DNA of 64,000 nucleotides from Acarospora socialis. Its lineage: Eukaryota > Ascomycota > Lecanoromycetes > Acarosporales > Acarosporaceae. The notes below the pieces were generated by a model, which had not been told where the DNA came from, made no database searches, and saw only the letters and a list, made by a program, of their open reading frames with translations. The stretch is from assembly GCA_025617375.2 (NCBI GenBank), contig JAMYGW020000009.1:1-64000 (forward strand), given 5' to 3'. Below are positions 1 to 4,540 of this stretch, in pieces. The number at the start of each line of letters is the position of its first letter. The first letter of the stretch is position 1. The position numbers were made by a program, and so were the translations under genes.

Positions 1-663
1 AAGTAACCATCACCCATTATTCAATGAGCTAAAGCAACAGGAGTAAATAACTCTTCTATCTTTAAAGGTAAAATTTTTAGAAATTTACCATCTATTTGTT
101 TATATCAAAGTTGATGTAAATTAGAAATAGCAGGTAAACGTTTAGTAGAAAATCAATATTGAGTAGGTTCTTTACCTGTTAACTTAGGATTTGGTCAAGG
201 TGTAGCTTCAGATTCACTAGAAATAAAAGCTAAAGCATAATATTTCAAGTATTTTACATAGTGTAAAACTTTAGCTGAAAATGTAAACTCTACTCTCCCG
301 TTAACAAGTGGAGCGTTAACAGGATCATATTTTATATAACCGTCTCCTAATAGTTCACCAGTTATTACTTCCCATACTTTTGATGGAACTACTCATTTAG
401 ATAAAACTTCTTTAGATAAAACAGTAGAACTAAATATTCATTTATTGTTAAATAGTTTGCCTGTATCTAAATAAACTGCAACAGTACTACGGTTAATTTG
501 TAGTACATTGGCACACTCCAATTTAGTTTTAAATGGAGCTCCTTTAACTAGCCCTTGTAGGCTTTCCGACAAATTATTTATATCATAAACTCAGATAAGA
601 AGTTTTTTAGACCCTTTACTAGTAGTATGAAGACTTATTTTTGATATATTTAGATTATTATTA
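1..663 (-). pseudogene. Mitochondrial-type LAGLIDADG homing endonuclease fragment (NUMOD-like region plus two LAGLIDADG motifs)
   Basis: Read on the minus strand with the mould mitochondrial code (TGA=Trp), this AT-rich stretch is open throughout; with the standard code it is broken by many TGA codons. It encodes a helix-turn-helix-like stretch (ECANVLQINRSTVAVYLDT) resembling the NUMOD1 modules of mitochondrial intron proteins. Then come GELLGDGYI and, about 115 codons later, HWIMGDGY, the two LAGLIDADG motifs of a single-chain homing endonuclease. Such proteins sit in group I introns of cox1, cob or nad genes and cut intronless alleles. The frame runs off the window at its 3' side and is cut at its 5' side by the telomere repeat. 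Nuclear ribosomes could not translate it. Either a mitochondrial segment was joined to the chromosome end, or the assembly is chimeric. Confidence 0.85.
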
Positions 664-795
664 CCCTAACCCTAACCCTAACCCTAACCCTAACCCTAAC
701 CCTAACCCTAACCCTAACCCTAACCCTAACCCTAACCCTAACCCTAACCCTAACCCTAACCCTAACCCTAACCCTAACCCTAACCCTAACCCTAA
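664..795. repeat. Telomeric repeat (CCCTAA)22
   Basis: Twenty-two uninterrupted CCCTAA units are present. The C-rich strand on + means the chromosome interior lies to the right, so this is a left chromosome end. The canonical fungal telomere sequence is TTAGGG. Confidence 0.98.
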
Positions 796-899
796 CCCTG
801 ACTTTGACCCTGACTTTGACTTTGACTTTGACTTTGACTTTGACTTTGACTTTGACTTTGACTTTGACTTTGACTTTGACTTTGACTTTGACTTTGACT
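796..899. repeat. Variant telomere-like hexamers CCCTGA / CTTTGA
   Basis: The perfect array passes in phase into CCCTGA, CTTTGA, CCCTGA and then a run of about 14 CTTTGA units, keeping the 6-base period. Two or three substitutions convert CCCTAA to CTTTGA. A short block of the same hexamer returns at about 1083-1108. Confidence 0.9.
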
Positions 900-1190
900 T
901 AATGCGCAAAGCTCTTACGATTGCGGCTCCACCGCAGCGAAAACTGCGATGAGCTTGGCGAAGACAGCAGCGAAAACGGCGACAAAGGCAGCGGCATGAA
1001 GACAGCATGCACCCAGGTTTGGCATTGATCAGTATTGTACAGTAAGCTATAGCTAGAATATTTTGAGTCTTTTTCGAAGGGAGCTTTGACTTTGACTTTG
1101 ACTTTGACAATCTCAAACACTGACTTCTATGTACTCTAGCTTCAACAGCTTCGACAGGCTTCGACGGCTTTCGACGGCTTCGACATCAAG
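900..1190. repeat. Subtelomeric unit with CTTTGA/CTTCGA hexamers
   Basis: This holds a unit beginning cttaatgcgcaaagctcttac and running to about 1027, which recurs in diverged form at about 4549-4632. It is followed by a CTTTGA block and CTTCGA-type hexamers (about 1135-1185). No gene is seen. Confidence 0.7.
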
Positions 1191-2125
1191 GCTTGCAAGG
1201 TGTGTGCGAGGTGTGCGAGGCGTGCGAGGTGCGTGCGAGGTGTGTGCGAGGTGTGTGCGAGGTATGTGCGAGCCTTGCGATTCTTGCGAGTCTTCCTTGT
1301 AAGTGCGTGCGATTCTTGTGAGTCTTCCTTGCAAGTGCGTGCAAGCCTTGCGAGGAGCGTTGCGAGGCTTGCGAGTTGCTTACGAGTGCTTGCGAGTCTT
1401 GCTTGCGAGTGCTTGCGAGTCTTGCTTGCGAGTGCTTGCGAGTCTTGCTTGCGAGTGCTTGCGAGTCTTGCTTGCGAGTGCTTGCGAGTCTTGCTTGCGA
1501 GTCTTACTTGTGAGCTTGAGAATTGCTTGTGAGCTTGCAAGTCTGTCTTGCTTCTCAAGCCTGCAGTTCTTCTTTCTGAGTTCATGCATGTCTTGTGAGT
1601 CCTGCACCTCTGCTCTATGCTTTGCAGTCTTTATCTAAGGCTTGTGCCTTTGCGACTTTGCGACTCTGGTTCCGAGTTCGTGCGAGTTGCTTGCGAGTCT
1701 TGCTTGCGAGAGTGTGCGATTTGCTTGCGAGTCTTGCTTTACAAATCTTGCAAGTGCGTGCAAGCGAGTCCGTGTGAGCGCAGGCTTGCGTGTGAGTGCG
1801 AGCTGCTTGCGAGAGCTTGGGAGTGTGCAAGGCTTGTGAGTCTTGCAAGAGCTTGTGAGTTTTGCAAGTTTTGCGAGGGCTTGCAAGAGCTTGCGAGTGC
1901 GTGCGAGGCTTGTGAGTGCGTGCGAGTCTTGCGAGTCTTGCGAGGCTTGCGAGGCTTGCGAGTCTTGCGAGGCTTGCGAGGCTTGCGAGTCTTGCGATGC
2001 TTGCGAGTGCGTGCGAGGCTTGCGAGTCTTGTGAGGCTTGCGAGTGCGTGCGAGGCTTGCGAGTCTTGCGAGTGCGTGCGAGTCTTGCGAGTCTTGCGAG
2101 TCTTGCGAGAGGTTGCTTGCGAGTA
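1190..2125. repeat. Subtelomeric minisatellite array 1 (TTGCGAGTC / TTGCGAGGC / TTGCGAGTGC)
   Basis: Imperfect 9-10 base units built on TTGCGAG fill this stretch. They are most regular at about 1385-1505 (a composite unit cttgcgagtgcttgcgagt) and 1920-2110. Open frames exist on both strands only because the repeat lacks stops; their Cys/Leu/Ser- or Lys/Thr/Ala-rich translations are not credible proteins. Confidence 0.85.
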
Positions 2126-2139
2126 CATACCAACAAAGA

Positions 2140-2640
2140 CCAGCGGAGACAAATGCACCGCAGCGAAAGCAGCGACGAGGTTAGTGAAGGCAGCGAGGCA
2201 CTGCATCTGTAACCCCAAAGACAACGGTGAGGTTAGCAAAGGCAGCGGTGAAGGCTGCGAAGACGAGCGAAGACAGCGAAGACAGCAAAAGCCAGCAGCA
2301 ATGCATCAATGCAGCCGCACTGCAGCGAAGGCAGCGGCATTAGCGGTATGGCACCGAAGGCGACAGCGAGGGTAAGCAAGAGGCAGCAAAAGACATCGGC
2401 ACTGCAGTGAAGTAGCGGCGAAGGAACGGCACCATCAATAGCATAGCAGTGAAGACAATGGCAAAGTCAGCAACGAAACTTATGGCACTGCAGCGACATA
2501 GTGGCGGAGACAGCAACATATTTGCAAATGCTGCAGCAAAGGCAGCGGCAGCAGCAGCATAACAGCGAAAGACAGCGGTGAAGGCAAAAGACAAAGTCAG
2601 TGGCAGATAGCGGAATCTAACGGGGATCAGCAAGCAGTGA
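2140..2640. repeat. GCAGCGAA/GACAGCGA purine-rich subtelomeric tract
   Basis: Degenerate short units such as gcagcgaagacagcg and gcaaaggcagcgg are dispersed through this stretch. The shorter element at 930-1000 has the same composition. No coding signal is seen. Confidence 0.6.
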
Positions 2641-3040
2641 CAGTGTGCAGATCTTGCTTGCAGGTCTTGCTTGCAGAAGCATGCAACTCTAGAGTGACAA
2701 AGATAGAGAGACTTCAACAGCTTTGATGAGCTTCAATGGGCTTGAACTGCAAGGCTTTGACTTTGAGTTCAAGAGCTTCAACCTGCTTTGAGAGCCTTGA
2801 CGGCCTCGAAGCCTCAATCGCCTCAATTGTCTCAACAACTTCGACAGCCTCGACACGGCTTCGACGGCTTCAACTTCAACAACAGCTTTAACTGCAAGAC
2901 TTTGTTCTCTGTGCTTTATCCTTTGTTCTTTGTTTTCTGTTCTTTGTGTTTTACTCTTTACTTCTTGCTTTACTCTTTGCTTTGCTTTACTCTTTAATAT
3001 TTGCTTCTTGCTTCTTGTTCTCTGTTTTTTGATCTATGCG
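2641..3040. other. Subtelomeric non-coding spacer
   Basis: CTTCGA/CTTTGA-like hexamers (about 2710-2890) are followed by a T-rich stretch (about 2900-3035) with repeated ctttgttctttg/tttactcttt. No gene or RNA is recognised. Confidence 0.5.
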
Positions 3041-3044
3041 GGTC

Positions 3045-4390
3045 TTGTGCTAAGTCTTCGAGTCTTGCTTTGCGAGTTTGCGACTTGCTTGCGAGAGCTT
3101 GCGAATTGCTTGCAAGTCTTGCGAGCGAGTCCGAGCTGCTTGCGAGAGCTTGCGAGTCTTGCTTGCGAGCTTACAAATGGCTTGCGAGTACTTGCGAGTC
3201 TTGGTTGCGAACTTGCGAGAGCTTGCGAGAGCTTGCGAGTCTTGCGTTTGAGGCTTGTGTGTGAGTCTTGCAAGTGCCGGTGAGTCTTGCTTTGTGAGTT
3301 TGCAAATCTGCTTTGCAAGTCTCTATCTAAGTCTTGTGAGTTTGCAAAGTGTGCTCGTGAGTCTTGTGCGCAAGCCCGAACTAGGGCTTTGCGAGTCTCT
3401 ATGTAAGTCTTGTGACCCCTGCAAGTTTGCAAGTCTACTCTGCTCTATGCTCTGTGAGTCTCTTTAAGTCTTTTTGAGCTTGCAAGTCTGCTTGCAAGTG
3501 CATACAAGTTTTGCAAGTCTGCTTTGCGAGCTTTGCGGCTTTGCGAGTCTTGCGGCTTTGCGAGACTGCTTGCGAGTGCGTGCGAGTACTTGCGAGTCTA
3601 AGTGTTGCGAGTCCTGTGTGCGACCCTGTTCTATGCTCTGTGAGTCTTTTGAGTCTGCAAGTCTTGTGAGCCTCGCAAACTTGCGACTTTACTTGCGAGT
3701 GCGTGCGAGTCCTGCATGCAACCCTGCCCTATGCATTGCAAGTCTCTATGTGAATCTTCCGGCTCTGCGAGAGTCCATTTGAGACTTGCGAATCTGCTTT
3801 GCCAGTTTGCGAGTCTGCTTTGCGAGTTTGCGAGTTGCTTGCGAGTGTGTGCAAGTATGCTTCCGAGTCCATGCGAGACTTGCAAATTTGCTTTGTGAGC
3901 TTGCGAGTGTGTGCAAGTCCTGTGTGCGACCCTGCCCTATGCTCTGCAAGTCCCTTGAGTTTGCAAATCTTGTGAGCCTTGCGACTTTGCAAATTTACTT
4001 GCGACTTTGCGAGTTTACTTGCAAGTGCGTGCGAGTCCTGCGTGCAACCCTGCCCTATGCATTGCGACTCTGCGAGTTTGCTTAAGAGTTCATGCGAGAC
4101 TTGCGAGTCTGGTTTGCGAGTTTGCGAGTTTGCTTTATGAGTTTACGAGTTGTTTGCGAGTGTGTGCGAATTGCTTGCGACTGCGTGCGAGTCCTGCGTG
4201 CAACTCTGCCCTATGCATTGCGACTCTGCAAGTTTGCTTACAAGACTTGCGACTCTGCTTTGCGAGTTTGCGAGTCTTCTCTGTGAGTTTGCGAGTGCGT
4301 GCGAGTTTGCTTCCAAGTCCGTGAGAGGCTTGCGAGTTGCTTGCGAGTGTGTGCCAGTTGCTTGCGAGTGCTTGCGTGTGAGATTTGCGG
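3045..4390. repeat. Subtelomeric minisatellite array 2 (TTGCGAGT-based, with a longer composite repeat)
   Basis: TTGCGAG units return, here also organised in a longer repeat. The phrase ccctatgc(a/t)(t/c)tgc preceded by a gtgcgtgcgagtcctg-like string recurs at about 3620, 3720, 3925, 4045 and 4205. This implies a higher-order unit of roughly 100-160 bases. Confidence 0.8.
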
Positions 4391-4540
4391 TTTGCGGAGA
4401 AGCTTTATGAGCTTTGTGGAGCTTCGTGGTTGTTGGGATCGCAAGTTTTCAATTTGTGTCTTCGAGTCTTCGAAACGGCTTCGAGACTGTGACTTAAGAC
4501 TCCGACTTCTACGATCACGACTCTGCACCTATGGCTCTGG

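Follow-up and report, generated by a model that had tools for sequence, protein, structure and literature searches.

Described systems and the left end of C9

The closest described parallel is the contig for maternal chromosome 11 of a giraffe assembly, where the telomere was described as lying about 18.8 kb inside the contig tip; a single ONT read supported that tip, which was trimmed off (PMC12621783). The two cases are alike in that a telomere array sits kilobases inside a contig end with non-telomeric DNA outside it. They differ in that the giraffe report (PMC12621783) describes inspected read support, amounting to that one ONT read, whereas the present case is known from the assembly alone and affects nine of 25 arrays. 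Chimeric reads have been described in their own right: 89 putative interspecies chimeric HiFi reads are said to lack homology at their breakpoints, eight of eight tested failed PCR, and random ligation is named as the primary source of HiFi chimeras in PCR-free preparations (PMC13288022). Among the matches listed from the open-licence literature, which is part of the whole, no title concerned mitochondrial DNA outside fungal telomeres, and term counts in the main text of two fungal telomere papers gave 0 occurrences of "mitochond" (PMC7367193, PMC8381367). A NUMT resembles our locus in that mitochondrial and nuclear DNA are joined in one contig, but it is flanked by nuclear DNA on either side or, when terminal, is followed by a telomere, whereas C9 simply begins in mitochondrial DNA.

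The window analysed covers the opening 64 kb of C9, a contig of 1,669,080 bp in a 31.1-Mb assembly of 38 contigs. Its outermost features are as follows.

1-663, minus strand: mitochondrial DNA fragment carrying part of a LAGLIDADG_2 ORF read in code 4 (identity to C38; Pfam PF03161)
663, no strand: junction of mitochondrial DNA and telomere, with a 1-bp overlap
663-799, plus strand: perfect (CCCTAA)n tract of 137 bp, likely the true C9 terminus (length similar to tracts at bare ends)
799-900, plus strand: (TGACTT)n array adjoining the telomere on its inner side, where the repetitive subtelomere starts

Positions 1-663 are an exact copy of C38:63522-64184, C38 being the mitochondrial contig of the assembly, and two places in contig C15 match them at 99% identity. 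The mitochondrial origin proposed in the first-pass annotation, which had called for a comparison with the strain's own mitogenome, was thereby confirmed. The same annotation had described the segment as open only when TGA is read as Trp and as encoding a LAGLIDADG endonuclease, and both descriptions hold: on the minus strand, positions 3-665 contain 221 open codons under code 4, including seven TGA codons that are stops under table 11, and Pfam LAGLIDADG_2 (PF03161) matches residues 97-220 of the ORF piece (E=8.3e-19; profile positions 1-113 of 168). By eye, two stretches resemble the motifs: GELLGDGY and HWIMGDGY, the second lying right at the edge. With this domain and the TGA=Trp reading, the piece has two features of a mitochondrial intron LAGLIDADG ORF. 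A NUMOD1-like stretch, also claimed earlier, proved weak (14 bits, the Pfam cut-off being 22.8; E=0.063); a precomputed NUMOD1 domain is present in nine of the 120 relatives listed, out of 155.

The contig start truncates the ORF, so that its C-terminal part is absent from the window, while the ORF in C38 runs for 321 codons from stop to stop and covers the full PF03161 profile. A neighbouring exon in C38 matches Proton_antipo_M, and exon and ORF are both read in code 4; we take this exon to be nad5 from its motifs, and the host intron is probably a nad5 intron. An Rfam intron search of the C38 region around the ORF gave no match at E<=0.1, no Rfam family reached its gathering score anywhere in the window, and the ORF piece found no solved structure at E<=0.001. 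In its PF03161 domain, its use of code 4 and its apparent intron setting in C38, the ORF is like the LAGLIDADG homing endonucleases of fungal mitochondrial introns, with records named for Peltigera, Dactylella and Arthrobotrys among the matches listed. Nothing unusual was seen relative to such endonucleases; the window copy is a cut piece of one.

Base 663 is the last to match C38, and uninterrupted CCCTAA repeats fill 663-799, so the earlier observation that mitochondrial sequence adjoins the repeats on their outer side stands. From 799 to 4400 the window consists of repetitive subtelomere, with the (TGACTT)n array first and many CTTGCGAGT-type tandem arrays after it; a (TGACTT)n array does not start any of the 19 other ends listed.

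Telomere arrays and foreign tips across the assembly

The C9 end was placed in context by a census of all exact TTAGGGx4 matches in the 31.1-Mb assembly, in which stretches of N cannot be counted. There are 489 such matches (254 forward and 235 reverse). Twenty-two arrays account for 203 forward and 235 reverse matches, and the arrays at C3R, C10R and C34R (L and R denoting left and right contig ends) contribute 20, 16 and 15, bringing the forward total to 254; the 25 arrays thus hold every match. All but two (C18L and C34R) of the 25 are on contigs C1-C14, and each points outward, at most about 11 kb from a contig end. Certain ends of C1-C14 show no telomere.

Fifteen arrays reach the contig end or come within five bases of it: C2L, C3L (within 1), C5L, C7L, C8L, C11L, C18L (within 5), C2R, C4R, C6R, C9R, C11R, C12R, C14R and C34R. 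One, C13L, has a 55-base G-rich tip outside the telomere (bases 1-55; 51 G followed by AGAT), which looks like a read-end or tailing artefact. Outside the remaining nine lie 0.47-10.9 kb of foreign DNA, mitochondrial in four cases and nuclear in five.

C9L: 663 bp, mitochondrial; C38:63522-64184, exact
C12L: 472 bp, mitochondrial; C38:9868-10339, 100%
C1L: 3453 bp, mitochondrial; C38:24287-27737, 100% (rounded), with a 2-base length difference
C8R: about 4.27 kb, mitochondrial; 94% to C15 over about 3.5 kb
C1R: about 6.4 kb, nuclear; 5078 bases queried, C4:1863577-1868654, 100%
C4L: 5.68 kb, nuclear; 5660 bases queried, C12:453531-459190, 100%
C13R: about 10.9 kb, nuclear; 6001 bases queried, C7:293667-299667, 100%
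C3R: 5.0 kb, nuclear; 300 bases queried, C11:1080678-1080977, 100%
C10R: 4.4 kb, nuclear; 300 bases queried, C4:491567-491866, 100%

Eight of the nine tips are therefore, in whole or in part, 100% (rounded) identical to a donor in the same assembly, an identity that for C3R and C10R covers only 300 bases of each tip. The donors are varied (three places in C38, two in C4, and one each in C12, C7 and C11), and all five nuclear donors are still in place in the interior of other contigs. Mitochondrial DNA makes up four of nine partners (95% interval 14-79%), a share compatible with DNA rich in mitochondrial sequence. None of the nine tips contains a further TTAGGGx4 array, and the contigs stop inside donor-like sequence. 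Behind the tips the telomeres are of ordinary length: the longest perfect tract has a median of 138 bp at the 15 bare ends and 129 bp at the ten extended ones (Mann-Whitney p=0.38).

No exact copy of the C8R tip was found in the assembly. It contains two tRNA genes predicted by ARAGORN, one of which reaches the Rfam cut-off, and ORFs matching Oxidored_q4 (nad3-like) and Proton_antipo_M, the latter read as nad2-like. Its first ~640 bases have no match in C15. Within this telomere-adjoining part, bases 25-235 of the query are 91% identical to C20:5203-5410, possibly a NUMT or else an element common to the two.

Several other features of the assembly were observed along the way. The perfect tract at C1R (252 bp; 1501-1752 of the right-end extract) is about twice the 96-150 bp of the other 24 arrays. 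At the left end of C14, the first 3 kb have 13-17% G+C, and no run of at least three telomere repeats occurs within 7 kb. C15 and C38 are two distinct mitochondrial sequences, 87-99% identical where compared through the tips, and a second, related fungus may be present in the sample. C15 (247,525 bp) carries two copies of these stretches at a spacing of about 131.0 kb and looks like a doubled circular mitogenome. The small contigs C30 and C35 have G+C of 0.77 and 0.67 in their first 300 bases and of 0.36 and 0.37 in their last 300, C35:15330-15428 is 82% identical to a mitochondrial tRNA region, and both contigs may be joins of bacterial and other DNA.

Junctions and the origin of the tips

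Junction overlap was compared at eight of the nine tips, all but C8R. The six junctions with a clean last repeat have overlaps of 1, 0, 1, 1, 0 and 2 bases; for C1L and C4L, where the last repeat units are imperfect, hand counts gave 1 and 2. The overlaps sum to 8 bp, where simulated blunt joins give 5.4 +/- 2.7 (P(>=8)=0.20), that is, homology at the breakpoints is at chance level, and capture driven by microhomology was rejected on this ground. The first-pass annotation had suggested that an overlap at the C9 junction, attattattaccct, could be microhomology. As mitochondrial DNA and telomere have only one base in common there, the overlap is not notable, and this suggestion fell away with the chance-level result at the eight junctions.

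Since unrelated, copied DNA lies beyond the chromosome end at roughly one in three of the telomeres found, we favour a technical join: positions 1-663 are almost certainly not part of chromosome C9 and, like the eight other tips, were produced in sequencing or assembly, with the CCCTAA tract at 663-799 the likely true terminus. A natural chromosome end, once end-repaired, would offer a ready end for joining in a library, and library preparation or sequencing probably joined the C9 end to an unrelated fragment, here 663 bp of the organism's own mitochondrial DNA. Such a chimeric read would extend beyond every genuine read, so that an overlap assembler could place it outermost in the contig and leave its overhang in place; the same process, with other mitochondrial or nuclear fragments, would have acted at the eight other telomeres. 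We infer that single or few chimeric reads carry each tip, and that these reads arose by end ligation, not by some other read error. A chimera of this kind predicts (i) an intact telomere of normal length, (ii) a partner drawn at random from the DNA in the preparation, (iii) no homology, and (iv) a contig end within the partner, less than one read length from the join, and what could be seen fits these predictions.

Some points weigh against an artefact. The exact 663-bp identity to C38 needs accurate or polished reads, and four mitochondrial partners in nine need abundant mitochondrial DNA. Real attached copies longer than a read could also leave contigs stopping inside them. Finally, C8R is without an exact donor, and for C3R and C10R the comparison covered 300 bases each, out of about 5.0 and 4.4 kb.

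The first-pass annotation had offered two readings of the C9 end, chimera or capture at a chromosome terminus; the former is strongly favoured by the nine affected arrays of 25 and the five nuclear tips, which disfavour the latter. Under capture, a mitochondrial fragment would have been joined in vivo to the natural telomere by end joining, with a new outer end lying beyond the contig. The exact match to the assembly's own mitochondrial contig is consistent with such an event, and the formation of NUMTs by end joining is a known process. C9L does join mitochondrial to nuclear chromosome sequence, as a terminal NUMT would; however, all four mitochondrial tips lack a TTAGGGx4 array on their outer side, the view of the far side ending where the contig begins, inside mitochondrial DNA. 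Nor is a further array present in any other tip, and the telomere behind the join is of normal length. Capture would also have to accommodate five nuclear pieces whose donors are still in place, as well as the recent alteration of nine telomeres in 25 with almost no divergence. We consider this reading very improbable, and give equally little credence to its general form, a frequent in vivo joining of intact telomeres to mitochondrial and interior nuclear fragments that would leave recently captured DNA outside the telomere tract at a third of ends. Capture at the C9 end alone, likewise improbable, would leave the eight other tips to a separate explanation or to the same unusual process.

Even less probable, to the point of being negligible, is break-induced or template-switch copying in vivo, in which telomeric 3' ends would have copied interior and mitochondrial DNA. 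It accounts for both nuclear and mitochondrial partners and for donors remaining in place. Such copying normally uses homology or microhomology, however, and the overlap is only at chance level; moreover, the copies should continue to a telomere-bearing chromosome end, and none is seen.

Three further candidates were rejected: a shared mitochondrial breakpoint, such as linear mitochondrial DNA with nuclear telomeres would give, as the three placed pieces come from separate places in C38 (9868-10339, 24287-27737 and 63522-64184) and from both strands; an involvement of the endonuclease ORF in the joining, as different mitochondrial or nuclear DNA is found at the other tips; and de novo telomere addition to a mitochondrial end, as the G-strand runs toward the mitochondrial DNA, the wrong way.

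Consequences for reading chromosome ends

Most likely, the mitochondrial tip of C9 has no biological significance, and the end of C9 should be placed at about base 663. Tips of this kind can be mistaken in annotation for NUMTs, translocations or duplicated subtelomeric genes, while telomere finders that scan only the last bases of a contig would overlook these ends. If in vivo joining were nonetheless true, it would represent a new form of telomere instability.
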